Shown in pieces: positions 25,762-40,875 of a stretch of DNA of 43,276 nt; positions within the stretch are counted from its first letter, which is position 1, and each line of letters opens with the position of its first letter. Below the pieces are notes generated by a model that made no database searches, had not been told where the DNA came from, and saw nothing but the letters and a program-made list of their open reading frames with translations. The position numbers and the translations under genes were made by a program. The stretch is from Candidatus Poseidoniales archaeon (GTDB taxonomy: Archaea; Thermoplasmatota; Poseidoniia; Poseidoniales; Poseidoniaceae). Location of the stretch: the NCBI GenBank assembly GCA_028283345.1, contig JAPOGE010000005.1, positions 1 to 43,276 on the forward strand. Direction: 5' to 3'.

Positions 25762-28656
25762 TCAACCATGGCGAGCGGCGATTTGTTCTGGCGTCCATCC
25801 GGCGCCCAGCAATTCCTCATCAGTCCATTGGTAGTCTTCCGATGACCCTCCGGCCTCTTCCTCGCCCGACCCCACCTCATCAACCGATTCATCATCAGTC
25901 TCATGCGCATCGGAAGTGGTGGATTGAGATTCATCCCCTTGCCCGCCTCCGACAAAAGCATCGGGCTGAGTCTTACCCGCGGGTCGAGGTGCTGGGGTCT
26001 TACTACCCAGCCATGCGACCACCGCTGCGGCGACGACCAGTAATGCGACGATTCCGAAGACGATATACATCATGTTGTCCTCGGCGAAGCCGGCGCCGCC
26101 GGCAGCCTCATCGTCACTACCAGAGGTTTGGTCACCACCATCTCCATCGGTTCCCGGCGAGACCTCTTTGGTACATCCGAGCACATCGACAGGGGTAAGT
26201 GCCGGGGTGTTGACACATTGGTCAGCATCATCATAGACACCGTCATTATCACCATCTCTCTGGGAGGCGGCGCAACCATTGGCATCGACATCGGCGTCAA
26301 GTGGCGTTTTCAGACAATCGTCGGCACCGTCGAGGACATTGTCGTTATCATCATCATCATCTTCAAGTTGATCATTACAACCATCTTCATCCCAATCCTG
26401 ACCTACACCGGAAGGAAACTTTTCACCTAATGGGCACCTATCGACCGAGTCGTTATAGCCATCGGCATCGTCATCATCATCCTCAACCGAATCCTTGCAC
26501 CCATCACTATCGTAGTCGGTTGCGAGATCCGCGGTCCAACCGGTCACCCCATCAGGGCAATCATCGGTCAGGTCGGGAATACCATCGTTATCGTCGTCAT
26601 TATCCTCGGAGTCGTCACGACAACCGTCGGCATCATTATCGTTATCGATACCTGAAATCCAGCCGAATAATCCCCGTGGGCAGGAATCGACATCGTTGTC
26701 GATACCATCACCATCTTCGTCATCATCACAGACATCGCCGATTCCATCGCTGTCTAGGTCGGCTTGGTCGGGGTTGGATAAATTGGCGCAGTTGTCCAAT
26801 TGGTCGACCAATCCATCGTCATCGGTATCAACGTCTTCACAACCATCATTATTTTCATCATTGCTGGCATTTGAAATCCATCCGACAGGACCTTTCGGGC
26901 AGATGTCGGGATGGTCGTCGAGGACTCCGTCATTGTCGTCATCTGGGTCTTCATCCGATGCATCGAGACAGCCGTCACCATCGTGATCGGAATTATTATC
27001 GGAAAACCAACCGGTTGCGCCCATAGCGCAATCATCATCATCATTTGCCAGGCCATCATTATCGAGGTCATCGTCGCAGGCATCACCCAGACCATCCGAA
27101 TCGTAGTCGGCCTGGTCAGGATTTGCATCGCTGGGGCAGTTGTCTGAACCATCGGTGATACCGTCGCCATCCAAATCCTTGGAATATCCCCAAATCGCCA
27201 GGTCGGTATAGCCTTCACTGGTATTCTGGGCGCCGGAGAAGGTTGCGGTCGAGTGGTAGTTCACGACACTGACCGCTGAGCCGGTCGAGTCCAAGGCGAT
27301 GTCGATTCCGTAATCAGTGCCCGGACCACCAGCGGTGATACCCCAGTTCCAATTTCCGGAGTTATCCATCTGGGCGAGTAGGATATCATCACCGCCAGAG
27401 GTCGAAAGGTTCTCGCTCCCGAGGAAGAACGAACTTGAAAGTCGACCCAACATCAAGATATCGTCATTGGCTGTGACCACCATGCTGTCTATCGATTCAT
27501 AGCCACTGCCGCCAGCGCTGGTGACGTTGCTCCAGTTTCCGTCAGCGGCGGAAGTGGCGATGAAGAGGTCGAACCAGCCATTACTGACGACGTATGAGTC
27601 GTTACCGAAGCTAGCGTTATCTTGGAATGCGCCCGAGGTGAAGACCGTGCCATTACTATCGACAACACATCCGGTACCCCAGTCATCATCAACCCCTCCG
27701 GCGCTATAACTCCAGCCCCACGAACCGTTATCGGTGATATGAGAGATGATTACGTCAGCACCCCCAGCACTAGTTAGTGACATTGGTTCAAGAATGACAT
27801 TACTGAGGAAGGAGCCAGCGAAATAGACCTCATCCATCGGGCCGAGACATAGACCTCCAAATGGCTCGAAACCGGCATCTCCGCCAGCGAATCCACCAAT
27901 GGCCCACTCCCAGACCTGCGAACTGGAGAGTTTTGCGACCGCAAGGGAGTATGCGTCCTGACCCGCAGGAATGTTACTGGAGCCGACATTCAGCATACCA
28001 CGGAAAAGCAGTGAGACGAAGACACTGTCATTTGAGTCGACGACGACATCGAGCGCCATCTCGTCATTGACGGTGCCGACAGATTCGACCCATTGCCAAG
28101 CACCACTCTTGGATAATTTAGCGACGAAGACATTGCCTTCATCATTATCCTGTCCTTTGCTCAGTGCCGTAAGGCTTCCAAGGCTCATCTCGCAGGCCAC
28201 GCCAGCGGTTCCAGAGCAATATAGGCCGGTGATGATGATATCTTCATTGCTGTCCAAAGCGATTCCGGCAACCGTGTCGACACCGATGTCGGTACCGCCA
28301 CCTACCATCCAATCCCAGGTACCGTTGGGGAATGCCTTGGCGATGAAGAAATCCTCATCGCTTTGTAGTCCTGTCGCCTGCAATCCACCATCATCGCCAA
28401 ACATCATGCTCGACATGAAGTTGCCAGAAATGTAGATTGAACCATCGCTTGCAGTGGCTATTCCAGTGACCAAGTCATCCTCAAAACCACCCGCAGATAA
28501 TGACCAGGATAGAGGTGAGCGGGCGCTGGCATCCCGAGATTGAGTTTCTTCGATGAGGCCATCTTCAAATGAGGAGAACTCGATTGCCATCGCCCAAGCG
28601 GTAGAGGTCAGCATTGCGGCGATGAACAAATTCAGTATTACCGAACGTAGTTGCAT
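25762..28656 (-). CDS. Secreted beta-propeller/TSP3-repeat surface protein
   Basis: From ATG 28656 the product has 964 residues. A signal peptide (1-22, NLFIAAMLTSTAWA) is followed by seven repeats of about 55-60 residues at 40-490. These have the pattern SAGG..DD...G.A.DS.G.IYISG.F, like SBBP-type beta-propeller blades. Residues 493-830 hold thrombospondin type 3-like calcium-binding repeats (DxDxDG...D.CP...GW). A membrane helix follows at about 862-881, and then an acidic cytoplasmic tail ending DEELLGAGWTPEQI. The protein is therefore a type I membrane protein displaying a calcium-stabilised stalk and a propeller head. A longer frame to a TTG at 28707 exists, but 28656 gives a clean signal peptide. 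It lies 67 bases after leuS on the same strand. Confidence 0.82.
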   Translation of the reverse strand: MQLRSVILNLFIAAMLTSTAWAMAIEFSSFEDGLIEETQSRDASARSPLSWSLSAGGFEDDLVTGIATASDGSIYISGNFMSSMMFGDDGGLQATGLQSDEDFFIAKAFPNGTWDWMVGGGTDIGVDTVAGIALDSNEDIIITGLYCSGTAGVACEMSLGSLTALSKGQDNDEGNVFVAKLSKSGAWQWVESVGTVNDEMALDVVVDSNDSVFVSLLFRGMLNVGSSNIPAGQDAYSLAVAKLSSSQVWEWAIGGFAGGDAGFEPFGGLCLGPMDEVYFAGSFLSNVILEPMSLTSAGGADVIISHITDNGSWGWSYSAGGVDDDWGTGCVVDSNGTVFTSGAFQDNASFGNDSYVVSNGWFDLFIATSAADGNWSNVTSAGGSGYESIDSMVVTANDDILMLGRLSSSFFLGSENLSTSGGDDILLAQMDNSGNWNWGITAGGPGTDYGIDIALDSTGSAVSVVNYHSTATFSGAQNTSEGYTDLAIWGYSKDLDGDGITDGSDNCPSDANPDQADYDSDGLGDACDDDLDNDGLANDDDDCAMGATGWFSDNNSDHDGDGCLDASDEDPDDDNDGVLDDHPDICPKGPVGWISNASNDENNDGCEDVDTDDDGLVDQLDNCANLSNPDQADLDSDGIGDVCDDDEDGDGIDNDVDSCPRGLFGWISGIDNDNDADGCRDDSEDNDDDNDGIPDLTDDCPDGVTGWTADLATDYDSDGCKDSVEDDDDDADGYNDSVDRCPLGEKFPSGVGQDWDEDGCNDQLEDDDDDNDNVLDGADDCLKTPLDADVDANGCAASQRDGDNDGVYDDADQCVNTPALTPVDVLGCTKEVSPGTDGDGGDQTSGSDDEAAGGAGFAEDNMMYIVFGIVALLVVAAAVVAWLGSKTPAPRPAGKTQPDAFVGGGQGDESQSTTSDAHETDDESVDEVGSGEEEAGGSSEDYQWTDEELLGAGWTPEQIAARHG
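26180..27175 (-). repeat. Coding TSP3-type Asp-rich repeats
   Basis: The segment encodes successive Asp-rich calcium-type repeats (DNDNDGIPD..DDCPDG.TGW.., DxDxDGxxD). GAT/GAC-rich codons make the DNA look repetitive on both strands. The long open frames on the opposite strand here (His/Arg-rich) are by-products of this composition. Confidence 0.75.
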
Positions 28657-28723
28657 GTGAAGGGCGACGACTTCATCCTTTTTCAAGCAATTCCGTAGCG
28701 GAATCAACCAGCAAGTGCCATTA

Positions 28724-31901: not shown

Positions 31902-34658
31902 TTAGATTCGCGGCTGATTGAGGAGGAATACCGCTTCTTTGGTCAACTTGTAACGATTCTTCAACCCGGACCTGCTCTTCTCGATCAGACCATACTTGTG
32001 CAGGGTTCGCAGATGATGGCTGATGAGTTGTTGGCTGCGCTCCAGTCGGTCGGCCAGGTCACGCTGAGTCGGATAGGTCCCCATCTGCCCGTCATTGTCG
32101 AGCAGGCGCAGAATCTTACCCTGCAATGAGTTTGCATCTGGGGTGAGGGCCGGTATCGGTAAATCTTCCACCGGGGTATCGGTATCGATGGTGGCGGGAT
32201 AGAATCGCATCAGACGGCCATCCTTGCGGCGCCATACGATCTCTTCTTCCTCAAGAATCTTGAGGTGATGGGTGATCTGTCCGTTGCTCATCCCCAGAGC
32301 CGCCATCAAGGCGCGGAAGTGGCATCCCGGGTTTGCTGTCAGATATCCCATCAGACGGCCACGCTGATATTTCCCATCATTAGTCTCGTGGGTTCGCCCG
32401 ACCAGACCGATGAGTGTCAAACCGATCTGTGAGAGCGGGATTCGCCACGACTCGTTGCCGACCACAGTCATCACCAGCAGACTCAATACCGAGGTAGAAA
32501 CGATGACCGCAACAATTGCTGGAGCGACTTCTTCGATGATGCTCTCTTCGATGATGACCACCGGCTCGTCATTGGCGATGCCGGCCTCAGATTCGGTCAG
32601 GAGGGCCTGCTCATGCAAGACTCCGATGATGGCAATGTGACTGTTCCACTCTGGGCATTCCGGGGCATTGCGCGGGTCATCTAGCACGAGGTATGTGCCC
32701 AGAGTCTTGGATTGTGGCATCCATGGTGCGACCGCGGTGGCATCGAGCAAGAGGTGGCTCTGGCCGCCGGCATTGAGTATCCAACAACCGTCATTCTGCG
32801 TGGTGACGTACATCCACGTGCCGGAGAGTGTGGTCGGGGTGATGACCTCGACCGGTTCATCTCCACTCGACTCATTTTCTCCTTCCACGGTGACGATTTC
32901 ATCTTCGAGTGGCCAAGTCAGTTGATACTGTATGGCGGCGGTAGGTAGAGCATTGATGCGGAAGTCTAGCCGGTAATCCCCTGGGACCAGGGGCTGTCCG
33001 ACCACGTCGACCATCAACAGTATGAACCCCTCATCACTCACAATGCTCGAGGGGGCGATACGCAGGCGCTCTGCCGCTTCAGCGCCACACCAGGTCTGCA
33101 ATCCGCCGACGATTGACTGTGTATCCAGAGAAGTGATATCCACACTGAGATGACAAGGACTGACCCAGCGCAGGTCGACGGAGTCATCGACGCTGGACAA
33201 GGTGATGGAGATGTTCAACGACTCGGTCGAGTCGAGCACAATACTCGGCTCACTCAATTGCAGGGTAGGGGAGATGTCAGTTTCCTGCGCGGCACCGAGG
33301 CAGGCGATTGCTGAGCCATCATCACTGTGAATGAATTCACTCACCGAGCGCAGGCGGAACTCGGGCACATCGACGATGACGGTGTAGACCCCGCTCACCA
33401 ATCCACAGCCACCACGGTCGACCAGAGGCCATTGGGCGTGATTGATTGAGAACTGTGTCCCCGCTTCAAGGACATGGTTGATGTCCACAACCCGGCAGTC
33501 ACGACCATCGCGGGTGTCGTAGACTATTTTCCCATCGGAGTTGAGAATGAAAATCTCGATTCGGCACATATTGGTGAAAGAAGCGATAACCGTCTGTTGT
33601 GCGGTATTGGTGAGGATTGCGGTGAAGCCGAGAGTTTCACCCCCGTTGGTGCGAACGATGCCTTCTTGGTCAGCGGCCATGGAAAAGATGACTCCGGGGG
33701 TGAGTGGCGAGCCTGGACCGGATAGTTGCGCCTCGGCGGGGGCGCCCAGATTGGAATAGGTGACAGTGGTCTGGGCCGACCGACTACCATCGGGCAGGCT
33801 GATTTCGATAAGCACCTCACCACTCTCGACCTCGATACCGTCAGAGCTGCGGAAATTCCAGTTCAACCAGCCATAATCACGTAGTTGGGAACTGACGAAA
33901 ACTTCGCCACCCAAGCCGCCATCGCACGGCATCTCGGTCAGTCGGTCGACCAACAGGGATTCATTCTGCCACGCGGTGAAGCGTAGATTACAGTCTGGTG
34001 AGGTGAATTGAGTCAATTCGGAATCTCCGGAATTGTACAAGCGGACCGCGGCGAACAAGCCCTCAGCAGAATTGAAGGAGCCTGAAGGAGATTCGGCCGC
34101 GACCAATTCAAATTCCAGCGCGTCAGCAATTTCGACCGGCGCCTGCCACAGGATTTCGATGCCGGAGGGGGAGTTTGCGCCAGCCGAGCCATCTGTCGAG
34201 AGGTTGGTATTGGGAATGGCAACGACCAAGGTCAGCAATCCCGAGGGCAGGTAATCATCATTTGCATCGGTGAAATTCCACGACAGGTCAGCCCAATCGA
34301 CGACTTCTCCAGCTGCGAAGTCGGTACCGCGGCTCTGTTGGCGGCAACCGGCAGATTGCAAACCATCCCACAACAGGGCGCCGGATTGCGAATATGCCGA
34401 CAATACCGCTGGGCAGGAAGGATTACTGGTAAGCGAAACGGCATCGCCACTATTGGTGATCAGGACGCTGATGTTCAATTCATCACCGGCGATATACCAG
34501 TCACGGGGTGGAGCCTCATCGATGCTGGCTGAAACCGAGAACCCATCATCCTCACCGGCTGAGACCAGGGCCGGAGCAGAGGCCAGCATCAGCGCTCCCA
34601 GCAGTAGCGCTATTGCCGAGCGCCGAGGTAGATTTTCCTTCGCGGTGGCACCGTTCAC
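31902..34658 (-). CDS. Transmembrane one-component regulator: Cys-paired ectodomain repeats plus two winged helices
   Basis: The 918-residue protein has a signal peptide (about 13-34, SAIALLLGALMLASAPALVSA) and then an ectodomain of about 670 residues with four beta-sandwich repeats. Each repeat has the pattern ...N(S/T)...C.....S..G..(L/V)......C and one cysteine pair. These resemble BsuPI-type (intracellular protease inhibitor) or Ig-like domains. After an acidic stretch there is one membrane helix (about 711-733, APAIVAVIVSTSVLSLLV). The cytoplasmic part has two winged helices: about 755-815 (GCHFRALMAALGMSNGQITHH) and about 845-915 (YPTQRDLADRLERSQQLISHH). It looks like a sensor that carries an extracellular signal directly to DNA. 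The start is GTG 34658; no other start precedes the in-frame stop at 34691. Confidence 0.82.
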   Translation of the reverse strand: MNGATAKENLPRRSAIALLLGALMLASAPALVSAGEDDGFSVSASIDEAPPRDWYIAGDELNISVLITNSGDAVSLTSNPSCPAVLSAYSQSGALLWDGLQSAGCRQQSRGTDFAAGEVVDWADLSWNFTDANDDYLPSGLLTLVVAIPNTNLSTDGSAGANSPSGIEILWQAPVEIADALEFELVAAESPSGSFNSAEGLFAAVRLYNSGDSELTQFTSPDCNLRFTAWQNESLLVDRLTEMPCDGGLGGEVFVSSQLRDYGWLNWNFRSSDGIEVESGEVLIEISLPDGSRSAQTTVTYSNLGAPAEAQLSGPGSPLTPGVIFSMAADQEGIVRTNGGETLGFTAILTNTAQQTVIASFTNMCRIEIFILNSDGKIVYDTRDGRDCRVVDINHVLEAGTQFSINHAQWPLVDRGGCGLVSGVYTVIVDVPEFRLRSVSEFIHSDDGSAIACLGAAQETDISPTLQLSEPSIVLDSTESLNISITLSSVDDSVDLRWVSPCHLSVDITSLDTQSIVGGLQTWCGAEAAERLRIAPSSIVSDEGFILLMVDVVGQPLVPGDYRLDFRINALPTAAIQYQLTWPLEDEIVTVEGENESSGDEPVEVITPTTLSGTWMYVTTQNDGCWILNAGGQSHLLLDATAVAPWMPQSKTLGTYLVLDDPRNAPECPEWNSHIAIIGVLHEQALLTESEAGIANDEPVVIIEESIIEEVAPAIVAVIVSTSVLSLLVMTVVGNESWRIPLSQIGLTLIGLVGRTHETNDGKYQRGRLMGYLTANPGCHFRALMAALGMSNGQITHHLKILEEEEIVWRRKDGRLMRFYPATIDTDTPVEDLPIPALTPDANSLQGKILRLLDNDGQMGTYPTQRDLADRLERSQQLISHHLRTLHKYGLIEKSRSGLKNRYKLTKEAVFLLNQPRI

Positions 34659-34671
34659 GGCAGGGGAACCG

Positions 34672-34692
34672 ATGACTTCCTTTAGAAGTCAT
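34672..34692. promoter_or_regulatory. Perfect palindrome between divergent regulator and hydrolase genes
   Basis: The arms ATGACTTC (34672-34679) and GAAGTCAT (34685-34692) are exact inverted repeats around a 5-base CTTTA spacer. The centre is 24 bases before the regulator's GTG and about 33 bases before the hydrolase ATG at 34715. The AT-rich core (TCTAAAG / CTTTAGA) could itself be the TATA element of one or both genes. Position and symmetry suit an operator for a dimeric winged-helix protein, possibly the regulator itself. Confidence 0.5.
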
Positions 34693-34714
34693 GCGGTACG
34701 TGGCATTTGTGTAA

Positions 34715-35491
34715 ATGTCCACCCTTCCCCGGTCCAACACCATCTATGATGGTGCAGAAATGCTTGTACTGCAGGCACAGTTGGGTGATTGGGATAATCT
34801 CAACCACCTGATAATCTGCAAATCGAGTGGCCAAGCGACAATCGTCGACCCGTTCAGCGGCAGATATTGGGCGCGGGTCTGCGGCGAGCGTGGATATACC
34901 CTCACATCAGCACTTCTCACCCATAGTCATTGGGACCACAGCAAGGGGGTTGCAGGTCTGCTCAAGGTGATTCCCGAAGTGCGGGTCTGGGTACACCAAT
35001 TGGAGTCCGGGCGCGGCTGGGAGGGGCCCGATACCGACCGTTGGGATCACTCCCCCCTCACCAGTGTTGATTTCCATCTTGGAAACCTGACTTTCAAGGT
35101 GCATTGTACCCCCGGACATACCCCTGGTCATGTGACGATATGCGGGCATGGAATCGTGCTATCTGGAGACTGTCTGTTCTTAGGTCGATGTGGCCGCACC
35201 GACTTGTTCGGCGGCGACATGCGGGCACAGCACGAGAGCCTGATATATCTCAAATCTATTCTCGCAGAATTTCCCGAAGATTGGCTGGTCCTGCCCGGTC
35301 ACCAATATGCGCTTGCAGATGGCAGTAACCCTACCTTCACAACCGTAGGTGAATTGTTGGTGGGAAATGCGGCTCTGGCTGCGGCGGGAGATTGGGATGA
35401 ATTCAGCCGCTTGGAGTTCTTATCATTCGATGATTCATTAGCAGTCAGGGCTCGGCGTCAACGAGCGAAAACCCGAGAACACAGTCACTGA
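34715..35491 (+). CDS. Metallo-beta-lactamase-fold hydrolase, glyoxalase II / persulfide dioxygenase-like
   Basis: The 258-residue protein has the full metal-binding set of the fold: THSHWDH at 69-75, the downstream His in CTPGHTPGH (131-139), GD at 151-152 within LSGDCLFLGRCGRTDL, and LPGHQY with His196. The stretch GDCLFLGRCGRTD and the TPGHTPGH block place it in the glyoxalase II/ETHE1/rhodanese-associated subgroup, which hydrolyses thioesters or oxidises glutathione-like persulfides. The sequence does not say which. ATG 34715 gives a complete N-terminus; ATG 34760 is an alternative, starting directly at MLVLQAQLGDWDNLNHL. It is divergent from the transmembrane regulator across a 56-base region that contains a palindrome, so it is a candidate target of that regulator. 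Confidence 0.85.
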   Translation: MSTLPRSNTIYDGAEMLVLQAQLGDWDNLNHLIICKSSGQATIVDPFSGRYWARVCGERGYTLTSALLTHSHWDHSKGVAGLLKVIPEVRVWVHQLESGRGWEGPDTDRWDHSPLTSVDFHLGNLTFKVHCTPGHTPGHVTICGHGIVLSGDCLFLGRCGRTDLFGGDMRAQHESLIYLKSILAEFPEDWLVLPGHQYALADGSNPTFTTVGELLVGNAALAAAGDWDEFSRLEFLSFDDSLAVRARRQRAKTREHSH

Positions 35492-35544: not shown

Positions 35545-38500
35545 TTAGAGGTTATCGAGGTCGAACATCGTCGGCGTCTCGGCCGCGGCGGCCTGCTCGA
35601 TTTCGTATTGCTTCCACTGCGGTAATTCTGAGATGTCCTGCCAGCCCAATTCCTTGGCCTTATCGTTCATTCCCTGCGAGAGGTAATAATCGATCCACTT
35701 CTGTTTCCGCTCCTCCTCCTCGCGGCTGTGTTCACCCCTCAGTTCGAGGAACTCGTCTTCGCTGACCAGGACCTTACCCTTGCGCCGAGCGCTCTGCTTG
35801 GCAACCTGGATTATCACCAAGGCGGCCAGAAGGAGCAGAATCACCCCGGTGAGAATAAACATCGGTTCGATACCAGACGATTCTTCGCCTGAGCCTTTGA
35901 CATCATCCTGCTGAGCCTCGGTTATCACACACTGGTCCTTTGAGCCGGACCAGAAATCCTTGTCGTAGGGGCAGATGTCATTGCGGTCGCTCTGGCCATC
36001 TCCATCGAGGTCGGGACAGCCATAACTATCACGCCAAGAGGTGCCATAATCGGTGCGGCAATCATCGGGTTGGAATGCTCCCAGGGTCACGTTATTGCCA
36101 TAACCATCGCCATCCGGGTCGGAGTTTTGCGTGAAACGGTCGGGAAATGCATCGGGTTGAGAGCCGTTGGGATTATCTCCCTTCCCATCGCCATCACGGT
36201 CGGCCCATTGGCTACCCTCATTGGGAAATGCATCACCATGCTCATCGCGCAGTGTGATGAAATTGCCGGCGATGAGCGGGTCTTCAACCGTCATATTCTC
36301 CCAGTAATAATTATCACCATAAGAATCACCATCGCTATCCTTCCACTGTAGTGGGTCGTTGGGAAAAGCATCCATCTCATCGGCCCAGCCATCGCCATCA
36401 TTGTCGGGGCAGCCTTCAAGCGGGGAGACCGAACTGGTGCCATACTCATCGAGGCAGTCATCACCGCTGGCGACCGCATTATTATCGCCGACGCCATCGG
36501 CATCGTCATCAGCCCATTGGAAAGGGTCATCGGGAAAAACATCTACCGAGTCGACATAGCCGTCACCATCACGGTCAGGACAACCACGAATCTCATCTTC
36601 ATTGGCCTCACCCGCCTCGGTCGGGCATTGGTCACCATTGGTTCCATCTGGGTTGTCGGGGAAGCCGTCGCCGTCGCTATCCCGACACTGGGTCGGGTCA
36701 TTCGGCCACCAATCACCGTCTGGTAGGACTTTGTTGTCGCCGCAACCATCACCATCACTATCCTTCCACTGGGTCGGGTCGAGAGGGAATTCATCGGAAT
36801 AATTGGCACCGATGATGAATACTCCCGGCCAATCGACACCGCGGGAGTCATTCCAAGTTGCATTACCCCAGTTATCGCCATAACCATCGCCATCGCTATC
36901 GGTCCACTGGGTTGGATCGTTCGGCCATTCGTCACCACCCAGCGGCTTGTTGGCCCAGCCATCGCCATCCCAATCCGGGCAACCGACCATATCAACCCAT
37001 GAATCACCTGAATCATATACACAGCCATCGGGATTGTTACCGCTCTGGTTATCACCGAATCCATCGCCATCCGAGTCGCGCCACTGAGTCGGGTCATCGG
37101 GGAATGCATCGGCATCGCCACTGGGATGGGCCGATTCATTTCCGTCGGCATTTGACCAGCCATCACCATCACTGTCCGGGCAACCCAACCGGTCCATCAT
37201 CGAATCACCCCATTGTCCGGGGCAGCCATCGGGCATTTGTCCCTCGGGATTATCACCGACCCAGTCACCATCGTAATCCGACCATTGGTAGCGGTCGAGA
37301 GGGAATGCATCGGCTGTTACCGCGCTGGCCACATAGATTCCGACACAGCCTATTTCCTCGGTACATCTGAACATGTTCGCCCACGAGGCATTGTTGTAAT
37401 TATCACCGTAGCCATCGCCATCGCTGTCATTCCATTGGGTGGGCTCGTTCAGAAATGCATCGCCGGATTGATTGAGGTGTAATTCCAGCGGTTGGGCGCC
37501 GGTGATGAAGTAGTAATTATCACCATAGCCGTCGTCATCGGTGTCGCGCCATTGGGTCACGTCGTCAAAGAAGGCATCGGCACCGTCGTCAACCTTCCAG
37601 ATCCCATCTGGATCAGACCATCCATCGCCATCGCTGTCTGGGCAACCGAAGCGGTCATGAAAAGACAGGCCAAAGGTTGTGACACAGGAGTCGGGTTGGT
37701 GGGCATTATCGTACCACTGTCCGACCGGTGTGGAGGCATTTTCACGGCTTGAATTCCACGATGTGTTGGCCCAATTATCACCATAGCCATCCATGTCGGT
37801 ATTGTTCCACTGCGTCGGTTCCAATGGGAAATAATCGACCCTGCCATCACCTTGGTCGGTGGTGTTCCAACCGTCCTGGTCGGGGTCGAGGTTGATATTC
37901 CAGAAGTATAGACCCTCATCATTTCTACCATGTCCAGTGACGATACTCTGACCGTCCGCCGACCAAGAGAGACCATACACGGTGCCACATTGGTTGCCGC
38001 CACCACCACTGGAACAGCCACCCGGTCGCGGACCAGAGAAGGTATCCTCGGCACTACCGTTATCGGTTGAATATACTCTCACTGAGGCACCATCGCCTTG
38101 ATAATAGGATATCGAGAAAGCGACCATTCTACTGTCGGGTGAGAAATCGGTTGACATGCAACTGCTGGTGTGAGTCTTTGTCCATAGCCTTGAACCGGTA
38201 TGAACATTGTATAACTCGGCCACTGAACCTGAACCTCCCCATGATTCACAGGTCGAAATCCAGTTACCATCCGGTGACCAGGCAATGTCGGCGATGGCGG
38301 CTCCGGCGATTCCGGTCATGCTGCGATTCAGTTGCCAGTTGACGGTATCATAAATCCACATGTCATCATTGCCGCCCAAGGCGATTCGCGAACCATCAGG
38401 TGACCAGGCGACGCTGTCGAAACGGTCTTCCCCGCCGGGGTTCAAGGAACGCTCTTCAAGTCCCGAAGAGGTATTGATGATCTTCACTACACCGTTGGTT

Positions 38501-39123
38501 CCACTTGACGTGGCACGCCCTATTGCAACCGCGATGAGACTGCCATCGTGGTTGAAGGCGATGCTCCCGGGAACATCATCGTTACCCGATTCGACATCGA
38601 CATTGATTGCGGCGTGGCGTGGGGTCATGTTCTCGGCCCACCAGATGTGCAACTCATCATCACCGCCACTACCTAGATTTGTAGACGCCGCGACCATGCT
38701 GCCATCCGGCGACCACGCGACCGCATCCGCGGCGCCACTCAACTGGTCGGAGAGCATGTTGATGTGGGTTGAGGTATTCCAGATTCGCACCCAGCCGTTC
38801 TCATCACCAGAGAGCACCAGTTCACCGTCCGGGCTATGGTCGATGCCGTAGTAATCGTAGCTTGAGGACAGGGTCTGAACGTTTTCAAAATGAGAACTCG
38901 GAATCGACCAGCGGTCAATCCAATCGCTGGTACCATCTCCGTCGGCATCAGGGCAACCGGTACGATCGACCGAACTGTTGCCGGCCGCTAGCGGGCAGTC
39001 GTCATTATGGTCTTCATGACCATCGCCGTCGGTGTCGACTGCACTTGCAAATGGCAGGAATACAAATAGGACCATGACTAACGCTACCGACGAGACGCGA
39101 AACAGCGGCAGCGCAGAGCGCAT
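35545..39123 (-). CDS. Large surface protein: WD40-like propeller plus TSP3 repeats
   Basis: From ATG 39123 the product has 1192 residues. A signal peptide (1-28, ALVMVLFVFLPFASA) precedes one TSP3-like pair (DTDGDGHEDHNDDCP). A WD40-like beta-propeller at about 78-414 has repeated AWSPDG/AFNHDG...IW(N/D)T blades. About 650 residues of long Asp-rich repeats follow, with the consensus DAFP.DPTQW.DSDGDGYGDN, many including a CPDxDGDG unit. A membrane helix lies at about 1086-1108 (MFILTGVILLLLAALVIIQV). The 80-residue cytoplasmic tail is charged (EEEERKQKWIDYYLSQGM). The upstream open frame to 39309 runs through a tandem duplication and is not likely coding. ACTAATATCA about 25 bases before ATG 39123 is a plausible TATA element. 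Confidence 0.82.
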   Translation of the reverse strand: MRSALPLFRVSSVALVMVLFVFLPFASAVDTDGDGHEDHNDDCPLAAGNSSVDRTGCPDADGDGTSDWIDRWSIPSSHFENVQTLSSSYDYYGIDHSPDGELVLSGDENGWVRIWNTSTHINMLSDQLSGAADAVAWSPDGSMVAASTNLGSGGDDELHIWWAENMTPRHAAINVDVESGNDDVPGSIAFNHDGSLIAVAIGRATSSGTNGVVKIINTSSGLEERSLNPGGEDRFDSVAWSPDGSRIALGGNDDMWIYDTVNWQLNRSMTGIAGAAIADIAWSPDGNWISTCESWGGSGSVAELYNVHTGSRLWTKTHTSSCMSTDFSPDSRMVAFSISYYQGDGASVRVYSTDNGSAEDTFSGPRPGGCSSGGGGNQCGTVYGLSWSADGQSIVTGHGRNDEGLYFWNINLDPDQDGWNTTDQGDGRVDYFPLEPTQWNNTDMDGYGDNWANTSWNSSRENASTPVGQWYDNAHQPDSCVTTFGLSFHDRFGCPDSDGDGWSDPDGIWKVDDGADAFFDDVTQWRDTDDDGYGDNYYFITGAQPLELHLNQSGDAFLNEPTQWNDSDGDGYGDNYNNASWANMFRCTEEIGCVGIYVASAVTADAFPLDRYQWSDYDGDWVGDNPEGQMPDGCPGQWGDSMMDRLGCPDSDGDGWSNADGNESAHPSGDADAFPDDPTQWRDSDGDGFGDNQSGNNPDGCVYDSGDSWVDMVGCPDWDGDGWANKPLGGDEWPNDPTQWTDSDGDGYGDNWGNATWNDSRGVDWPGVFIIGANYSDEFPLDPTQWKDSDGDGCGDNKVLPDGDWWPNDPTQCRDSDGDGFPDNPDGTNGDQCPTEAGEANEDEIRGCPDRDGDGYVDSVDVFPDDPFQWADDDADGVGDNNAVASGDDCLDEYGTSSVSPLEGCPDNDGDGWADEMDAFPNDPLQWKDSDGDSYGDNYYWENMTVEDPLIAGNFITLRDEHGDAFPNEGSQWADRDGDGKGDNPNGSQPDAFPDRFTQNSDPDGDGYGNNVTLGAFQPDDCRTDYGTSWRDSYGCPDLDGDGQSDRNDICPYDKDFWSGSKDQCVITEAQQDDVKGSGEESSGIEPMFILTGVILLLLAALVIIQVAKQSARRKGKVLVSEDEFLELRGEHSREEEERKQKWIDYYLSQGMNDKAKELGWQDISELPQWKQYEIEQAAAAETPTMFDLDNL
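35940..37870 (-). repeat. Coding FPxDPTQWxDSDGDGxGDN repeats
   Basis: More than ten units of an Asp/Gly/Trp-rich repeat are encoded in tandem with variable spacing. The DNA similarity between units (ccatcgccatc..., ttgggtcgggtc...) is strong enough to create long open frames on the opposite strand. The Asp ladder implies calcium binding. Confidence 0.75.
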
Positions 39124-39140
39124 AATCTCCGATATACCTG

Positions 39141-39150
39141 TGATATTAGT
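39141..39150 (-). promoter_or_regulatory. Possible TATA box for the WD40/TSP3 surface-protein gene
   Basis: The minus strand reads ACTAATATCA, centred about 23-26 bases before the ATG at 39123, the spacing for a leaderless transcript. Confidence 0.35.
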
Positions 39151-39183
39151 CCTTACGCATTGGTTGTGCGCGCCAATACATGC

Positions 39184-39251
39184 GTATTTTCGCTCGCGCG
39201 TGTGCGGCAGCGGGCCGGTATTTTCGCTCGCGCGTGTGCGGCAGCGGGCCG
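39184..39251. repeat. Perfect 34-bp tandem duplication in a divergent promoter region
   Basis: Two identical 34-base copies stand head to tail (39184-39217 and 39218-39251). Each begins GTATTTTCGC and ends GCAGCGGGCCG. The duplication lies between the divergent surface-protein gene (ATG 39123) and the STAND ATPase gene (start 39298 or 39310). No complete third copy follows. Confidence 0.9.
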
Positions 39252-39297
39252 ATTTATTGCGGCGCAAGCGGGCGAATGATTCAACATCACCTACACT

Positions 39298-40875
39298 TTG
39301 ACGGGCCATGTGGCGAGCGAATTACCAAAGGTCTCGGTTGCGGTCAGCGACCGCATTCTGCTACATCTCTTGGAGCATGATAATCAGGCCGACAAGTATG
39401 TCGTCAACAATTCCGTCACCCGACGTGGAATAGCCGAGGCCTGCGCTCTGCACCCGCCGAATGTGAGCCGGACGATGCGAACCATCCTGCGGCAGGGATT
39501 GGTCAGCGAGCACTCGCGTACGGTGAAGGGGGAATCACGCCGCCAGAAGACCTGGCAGTTGACAGATGCCGGGCGAGAGGAAGGTGAGATGCGCAAGGAG
39601 GCGATGGCGAAGATACCCTTGCTGATTCGTGACCGTCGCGGAACCCTGCTGGAATTAGAGGCCGGCCAAGCCACTGACAGGCTAGAGGCCGACCTCTCGC
39701 TACTACAGGTCCTGATGCACGCCCAACACGAGGGAGTATTGGTATTCGGAGACATTCGCTTCGGGCCGATTCGCCGCAGTGAGGGCGGTAAGGCGAAACA
39801 GCCGGGAAGGTTGACCCTGCTGGCCGGCGCCCATGCGACCTACCACACCGCTCCGCCTCCGCCGCGCGATTTGCATGGGCGGACTGCTGAGCTCGAACGT
39901 CTCCATCAATGGCGAATCGACCGTACGCCGGCACTGGTGCTCTCAGGGATTGCCGGTATCGGCAAGTCGACCCTGGCGGCGCAATGGGTCAAGGAGATGA
40001 TGGAAAAGGAGGAACTACTCTCGGTCTGTTGGTATCCATGCCAACCTTGGGACCGCCCCCTCGGAGTTGCCGTCAGCGTGCTGCACCGCTTGGGAATCGA
40101 TGAGAATCACGACCCATACAACCTGATGGACACCTTGCCGATGTTGCCCGGAGCCTCACTCGATGTCGATTCGTGGCGCCGACGCCTGCTCGCCTACCTG
40201 ACCGATGGCAAGGCGGTGCGCGAAAGGTATCGCGACAAGCCGGCCACCGGTGCACCCCCACCTACCTGGTTATTCATCCTCGACGATATCCACCATCTGG
40301 GCGAGGGAGGGGATGAATTCCTCGGTGCCCTGCTTCAGGTCGCCAGTCAATCGCCGATACAATTACTGATGATAAGCCGCTACGACCTCGGATTCTACGA
40401 CCGTCGAGATGTCCATACCCGTGGCCTGGTCGATGAGATGGCGATAACCGGTCTGTCGGTCGAGGCCTTGGGCAACTGGTTGTCGGCGATGAGCAGTGAG
40501 GAGAAACCCTCGGCCAAAGAAGTGCACAAGGTGACCGGCGGCCATCCTCTGGCGATGGAACTACTCGAATTATATGGTCAGGTAGCGCATGGGGATTGGT
40601 TGCGTTTCCTCGATGAGGAGATCATCGACCAACTCCCTGCACCCGAGCGTGCCCTGTTGTCACAGTTGGCAGTCGCCGAGCGCCCGATACCGTGGCCGCA
40701 ACTGGCACAAGCCGCCGGTTGGGACGGAAGTCCACCCAAGCGCCTGCTCGAGCGCTCATTACTGCTTGAGACCGATGATGGGATGTGGTTGCACGATGCC
40801 CTGCGCGAGAGATTGAATCGCGAGGTCGGAAAAGTACGGACGAAGCGAAAAAAGAAACTGAAACAGAAAAAGTAG
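39298..40875 (+). CDS. STAND-type ATPase with N-terminal winged helix
   Basis: The 525-residue protein has a winged-helix/MarR-like N-terminus (about 15-95, GIAEACALHPPNVSRTMRTIL then WQLTDAGR). After a linker with HGRTAELERLHQW comes an NTPase domain: Walker A GIAGIGKST at 217-225, Walker B WLFILDD at 324-330, LLMISR near 357, and the GHPLA motif of STAND/AP-ATPases at 415-419. A helical and second winged-helix-like segment ends in a Lys-rich tail (RTKRKKKLKQKK). No repeat sensor domain follows. It may be a DNA-binding, signal-gated switch. The start is TTG 39298 or GTG 39310; the latter may be better, and no ATG is in frame. It is 31 bases before the giant repeat protein gene on the same strand. 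Confidence 0.82.
   Translation: MTGHVASELPKVSVAVSDRILLHLLEHDNQADKYVVNNSVTRRGIAEACALHPPNVSRTMRTILRQGLVSEHSRTVKGESRRQKTWQLTDAGREEGEMRKEAMAKIPLLIRDRRGTLLELEAGQATDRLEADLSLLQVLMHAQHEGVLVFGDIRFGPIRRSEGGKAKQPGRLTLLAGAHATYHTAPPPPRDLHGRTAELERLHQWRIDRTPALVLSGIAGIGKSTLAAQWVKEMMEKEELLSVCWYPCQPWDRPLGVAVSVLHRLGIDENHDPYNLMDTLPMLPGASLDVDSWRRRLLAYLTDGKAVRERYRDKPATGAPPPTWLFILDDIHHLGEGGDEFLGALLQVASQSPIQLLMISRYDLGFYDRRDVHTRGLVDEMAITGLSVEALGNWLSAMSSEEKPSAKEVHKVTGGHPLAMELLELYGQVAHGDWLRFLDEEIIDQLPAPERALLSQLAVAERPIPWPQLAQAAGWDGSPPKRLLERSLLLETDDGMWLHDALRERLNREVGKVRTKRKKKLKQKK

Follow-up and report, generated by a model that had tools for sequence, protein, structure and literature searches.

The gene at positions 31,902-34,658 probably encodes a type I transmembrane transcription regulator of Candidatus Poseidoniales, a one-component system in which an ectodomain, a single transmembrane (TM) helix and a pair of cytoplasmic winged helix-turn-helix (wHTH) domains are predicted to couple the cell surface to DNA. 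Poseidoniales are abundant archaea of the surface ocean, and we know of no established mechanism by which they sense particles, polymers or neighbours. With an outer ectodomain, a single TM and two inner DNA-binding domains, the protein would probably pass an outside signal straight to the genes. The window, i.e. the whole stretch of DNA analysed here (43,276 nucleotides), is a 43-kb contig belonging to a 2.1-Mb genome.

The open reading frame (ORF) is intact, and the nearest relative of its product is a protein of 83% identity in a metagenome-assembled genome, UBA60 (locus L033; NCBI: Ca. Poseidoniales). The features of the gene and its surroundings are listed in Table 1. DNA-binding domains and TM region lie within one chain, and Pfam and NCBIfam scans revealed no kinase, receiver or HAMP domain, in agreement with the one-component type proposed by a sequence-only reading of this DNA. 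Both cytoplasmic winged helices of that reading were recovered: the first matches PF24266 above the curated gathering cut-off (E 7e-13, 48.9 bits), and an HTH of the ArsR/MarR type follows at about residues 845-905. The same reading had described four cysteine-paired ectodomain repeats. D1-D4 are indeed mutually homologous (hhalign E 3e-7 to 8e-19, profiles of 24-sequence alignments), with Cys pairs spaced 22-23 residues, but a fifth domain (D5) with its own pair and the additional pair 418/453 in D3 had been missed. Profile comparison of the same alignments detected no kinship of D5 to D1-D4.

Table 1. Features of the regulator gene, its promoter and the linked surface-protein gene.
Feature	Position	Strand	Basis
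Whole gene, 918 aa, GTG start, predicted type I transmembrane transcription regulator	31902..34658	-	ORF and full-length orthologs
Signal segment (residues 1-35), hydrophobic core, ALVSA-GEDD	34554..34658	-	Hydrophobic segment at N-terminus in all orthologs
Ectodomain repeat D1 (36-176), Cys 82/105	34131..34553	-	Alignment, profile comparison
Ectodomain repeat D2 (178-312), Cys 223/245	33723..34127	-	Alignment, profile comparison
Ectodomain repeat D3 (322-460), Cys 365/388 and 418/453; best BsuPI-like domain	33279..33695	-	Pfam, alignment, profile comparison
Ectodomain repeat D4 (464-592), Cys 502/524	32883..33269	-	Alignment, profile comparison
Membrane-proximal domain D5 (600-690), SGTW...CW...C, Cys 625/668	32589..32861	-	Alignment, profile comparison
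Transmembrane helix (715-733)	32460..32516	-	Kyte-Doolittle (KD) hydropathy, flanking charges
Juxtamembrane segment NExxRIPxxxxGLxxxGLxGRT (734-757), conserved, possibly amphipathic	32388..32459	-	Ortholog alignment
Winged helix 1 (765-825), HTH_HVO_0163_N	32184..32366	-	PF24266, 48.8-48.9 bits vs cut-off 31
Winged helix 2 (845-905), ArsR/MarR-like, recognition helix SQQLxSHHLxTL	31944..32126	-	Pfam/NCBIfam scans, alignment
TATA-like core CTTCTAAA, -30 of GTG	34681..34688	-	Ortholog upstream comparison; generic TT[CGT]AA peak at -30
ACCGC element, conserved, just upstream of TATA-like core	34693..34697	-	Ortholog upstream comparison
Perfect palindrome ATGACTTC-N5-GAAGTCAT, overlaps promoter, genus-specific	34672..34692		Genome search
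Surface-protein gene, 1254 aa predicted, WD40 propeller, Asp-rich TSP3-like repeats, C-terminal TM	35545..39309	-	Pfam and sequence reading

Concerning topology, KD hydropathy reveals an N-terminal peak at residues 16-34 and a sole further TM-like peak at 715-733, which bears out the proposal of a signal peptide and a single membrane helix. Just these two peaks are present in 22 of 24 orthologs, the other two having one additional marginal peak. The 20 residues preceding the TM contain on average 0.2 K/R and 4.0 D/E, the 37 residues following it 5.2 K/R. This charge asymmetry fits a C-terminus inside the cell. Neither C-terminal domains lying outside the cell nor a lack of wHTH matches in them, which would have contradicted the sequence-only reading, emerged from these sequence comparisons. 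N-glycosylation sequons were considered as evidence of export and dismissed, since they are rarer than expected (56 vs 121 in shuffles, 24 orthologs); in the strongly acidic ectodomain (32,589-34,553, minus strand) they occur at about half the shuffled frequency.

The ectodomain repeats, judged by profile matches, are distant relatives of BsuPI (PF12690), the Ig-like domain family to which the Bacillus protease inhibitor IPI belongs (PMC3901451; PDB 3ISY). Of the 24 orthologs, 23 match BsuPI, with a best E of 8.6e-13; in orthologs L021 and L026 a match lies in D1. Five orthologs (L005, L008, L019, L021, L026) exceed the Pfam cut-off of 22.9 bits; the window protein stays below it with 18.8-19.8 bits, and the profile match of the ectodomain to 3ISY is weak (E 0.008). 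The earlier hint at BsuPI and Ig folds was thus right, and the Cys pairs are to be added to it. We infer an Ig fold for D1-D4 from sequence profiles, as AlphaFold2 predictions of residues 700-918 and 316-600 from two sequences only (window and L033) gave pLDDT values of 37 and 30, too low to use. In contrast to IPI, the repeats are here arranged in tandem, Cys-paired, predicted to be extracellular and fused to a TM and wHTH domains. The kinship does not imply protease inhibition by the regulator.

The sequence-only reading had recommended a search for the order ectodomain-TM-wHTH in Poseidoniales, and full-length orthologs turned up in each of the two Poseidoniales families. None of the 12 ectodomain Cys varies across the 24 full-length orthologs of both families, and Cys account for more than half of the 22 ectodomain columns without variation. 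Six disulfides are predicted from the conserved pairs; their conservation may be purely structural. Apart from the nearest relative, ectodomain identity is merely 20-37%. In the cytoplasmic part, identity to the window protein is 53-95%; SNGQ..HH and SQQL.S in the recognition helices do not vary, and the wing is rich in Arg. A fixed Cys framework, a variable surface and a fixed DNA-reading part fit a receptor with fixed output. Of 165 genomes of the order that are 80% complete or more, 101 have the ectodomain and 64 gave no match to it, so the regulator cannot be essential throughout the order. The ectodomain is missing from genus g4 and from several second-family genera; some absences may be assembly gaps.

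The regulator is linked to a gene for a predicted surface protein. The WD40 propeller of this protein was identified by Pfam, and its Asp-rich repeats are called TSP3-like from reading the residues, since no TSP_3 model passed. In the ortholog loci retrieved, the gene order surface protein - regulator - leuS is kept, with the surface-protein gene adjoining the regulator in 18 of 20; in one of the others (L041) the surface-protein piece is cut by the contig end and in the second (L036) the surface protein is absent. Across 57 genomes, both genes were present in 30, the regulator only in 3, the surface protein only in none and neither in 24; the corresponding numbers in the second family are 5, 1, 0 and 17. 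Four of the 24 genomes with neither (genus g4) hold a divergent surface-protein relative of about 40% identity. Fisher tests (p 4e-13 and 2e-4) overstate the association, because of the kinship among the genomes and because neighbouring genes can go together: the co-occurrence is phylogenetically clumped, and one deletion could remove both genes.

Other genes accompany the pair. A metallo-beta-lactamase-fold (MBL) gene (34,715-35,491, plus strand) lies between the surface-protein and regulator genes, divergent from the latter; of 20 relatives, 13 have it there and others lack it, so it comes and goes. Divergent from the surface-protein gene, and kept alongside it in most relatives, is an AAA_16 ATPase gene (39,298-40,875, plus strand) whose 525-aa product weakly matches a Crp-type HTH. 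A 981-aa TSP3-repeat protein (25,762-28,707, minus strand) is encoded next to leuS, its orientation relative to leuS varying among relatives.

Most of the 28 orthologs compared have a core CTT(T/C)(C/T)AA, or a near variant of it, about 30 bases before the start of the regulator gene, and ACCGC usually precedes this core by 4 bases. The 17-bp combination of both elements is nearly unique to the regulator promoter within each genome. At the same distance of -30, TT[CGT]AA also has a peak upstream of 143 other genes; the core thus probably serves a leaderless transcript as its TATA element. ATG starts in the group of loci L034-L053 and the window are likewise enriched in TT[CGT]AA at -30, which suggests that transcripts of these Poseidoniales are leaderless and that their TATA element is of the TTCAA type. 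The palindrome put forward earlier as an operator did not hold up well. It is exact and the sole exact copy in the genome, and it is common to just two genomes, that of the window and a sister genome of the genus; symmetric pairing about the TATA-like core in 17 orthologs across genera was not above shuffles (p 0.22). Being genus-specific and overlapping an apparently ordinary TATA element, it is weak operator evidence. The motif ACCGCWKNNCTTYYAAR was rejected as a regulon signature: in 57 genomes its matches, about one per genome, lie mostly upstream of the regulator gene, and thus no regulon was found. Upstream sets of leuS, the AAA gene and the MBL gene also yield motifs above shuffles, weaker than that of the regulator. 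Autoregulation of the regulator gene is possible, judging from its upstream sequence.

The cytoplasmic half is not peculiar to this protein. A chassis of TM and tandem wHTH (PF24266 and HTH_24) occurs across the phylum on many other ectodomain types; module matches are present in 121 of 200 phylum genomes, with a maximum of 20 per genome, and PF24266 also matches Haloferax, Methanosarcina and Methanocaldococcus controls. As in the HTH_HVO_0163_N (PF24266) family, the first wHTH of the regulator is above cut-off and is followed by a HTH_24/ArsR/MarR-type wHTH, and most relatives examined carry a TM before the wHTH, as here. In 20 chassis loci, hand-picked mostly from long-ORF matches and not an unbiased sample, a TM peak shortly precedes the tandem wHTH in all 20 and an N-terminal hydrophobic segment is present in 17. 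Outer domains of the nine picked loci scanned comprise PKD, CARDB, NPCBM_assoc, He_PIG, FG-GAP, NosD/beta-helix, CarboxypepD_reg and DUF2330. Four genomes (G186, G236, G208, G183; loci L126-L132, L138, L143) hold 14-20 module matches each, many of them forming the end of a long protein that carries PKD, CARDB, Ig or beta-helix outer domains.

Two further tandem-wHTH proteins are encoded in the window's own genome. Within the order, the cytoplasmic module is also carried by short outer parts (L077-L082), by Asp-rich TSP3-type (L083, L084, L089, L093) and by low-complexity outer parts (L090, L094, L095). L077-L082, from second-family genera, have an outer domain of about 90 aa and a cytoplasmic part 46-49% identical to that of the window regulator; D5 as the ancestor of these short ectodomains found no support, the resemblance being weak (profile comparison E 0.026, probability 2%). 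In the searches made, the Cys-paired BsuPI-type ectodomain on this chassis is restricted to Ca. Poseidoniales. Beyond the order, the ectodomain gave only weak matches in three genomes, to BsuPI-like proteins without wHTH, and no viral relatives were found. The idea of a marine-archaeal class therefore stands for the occurrence in Poseidoniales, but the chassis is phylum-wide with other ectodomains and the marine part is one ortholog group. Rather than standing alone, the regulator is a conserved variant within an archaeal design of broad occurrence.

We propose the following mechanism. The exported ectodomain would form a rod of four Ig/BsuPI-like domains and the CW domain, braced by the six predicted disulfides, and would have a binding partner on the cell surface; this may be the neighbouring WD40 surface protein or an envelope component. 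On binding, the single TM helix and the juxtamembrane segment, in which E736, R739, G746 and G751 are invariant, would change in spacing or in dimer state, and DNA binding by the two winged helices would change with them. Likely targets would be the regulator's own promoter and surface-protein genes.

Signalling might instead proceed by regulated proteolysis, with the ectodomain cut upon a signal and an intramembrane protease freeing the tandem-wHTH fragment as a soluble factor. The single TM does adjoin a conserved glycine-rich juxtamembrane segment, and a variable acidic linker separates D5 from the TM. We consider this route unlikely, as no cleavage motif was identified in the regulator, no protease gene was seen among its conserved neighbours and relatives on the chassis almost always retain the TM. 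Slightly less probable still is a constitutive membrane tether that anchors chromosomal sites or represses genes, its ectodomain an adhesin or wall-structural part and no sensor. Chassis ectodomains are mostly generic adhesion folds (PKD, CARDB, NPCBM_assoc, He_PIG), and that of the orthologs evolves fast except for its Cys, as a tether would allow; yet a large conserved ectodomain fused to DNA-binding domains is hard to explain without signal transfer, and specific residues are kept in D5 and the juxtamembrane segment. Even though wHTH folds can serve protein binding, a membrane scaffold whose winged helices make protein-protein contacts is very improbable, given that hardly any part of the protein is better conserved than the recognition helices and the Arg-rich wing, and that both domains match DNA-binding families above curated cut-offs.

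Direct transfer of a signal across the membrane to DNA is known from other regulators. ToxR and CadC have an OmpR-type wHTH at the N-terminus inside the cell and the sensor at the C-terminus; the window regulator, in contrast, has an N-terminal signal, the TM at 715-733 and the wHTHs at 765-905, and no ToxR/CadC family match was seen in it. What the window regulator would share with them is outside sensing coupled via one TM to a cytoplasmic wHTH (PMC5430869). Membrane-bound one-component transcription factors act in archaea as well, e.g. ArnR and ArnR1 of Sulfolobus (PMC6396743). ArnR has its HTH at the N-terminus, a HAMP-like domain, a sensor domain and, at the C-terminus, two TMs (PMC6396743); this order is reversed in the window regulator, which has one TM and a large ectodomain. 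The rarity formerly ascribed to membrane signalling without a kinase is contradicted by a survey reporting transmembrane transcription regulators in 367 of 404 archaeal species, about four per genome (Demey et al. 2023, PMC10269533). These share with our regulator a DNA-binding domain and TM in one single-pass protein without kinase or receiver; the large signal-led ectodomain and the tandem wHTH, C-terminal and predicted to be cytoplasmic, set the latter apart. The passages of the survey that were consulted mention neither this regulator family nor its BsuPI-type ectodomain, and no earlier description of the family was found in the literature on HVO_0163, COG3398 and Poseidoniales regulators.

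New in this regulator is a distinct ectodomain upon a wHTH module of known type; specific to it are the BsuPI-type ectodomain on the chassis and the tight pairing with the WD40 surface-protein gene. Searchable papers seem to say little about the broader modular class in Thermoplasmatota, and this class is the more interesting lead. We tentatively suggest, as a possibility we hold rather doubtful, that Thermoplasmatota employ modular type I membrane transcription factors with exchangeable adhesin-like ectodomains as direct surface sensors, and that the disulfide-bearing BsuPI version of Poseidoniales pairs with its WD40 neighbour as a two-protein sensor. For Poseidoniales, the regulator is a conserved surface-to-DNA candidate, with a likely partner and promoter named. 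For the phylum as a whole, the chassis points to membrane transcription factors whose outer domains are of the adhesion type and which are testable in cultured relatives.
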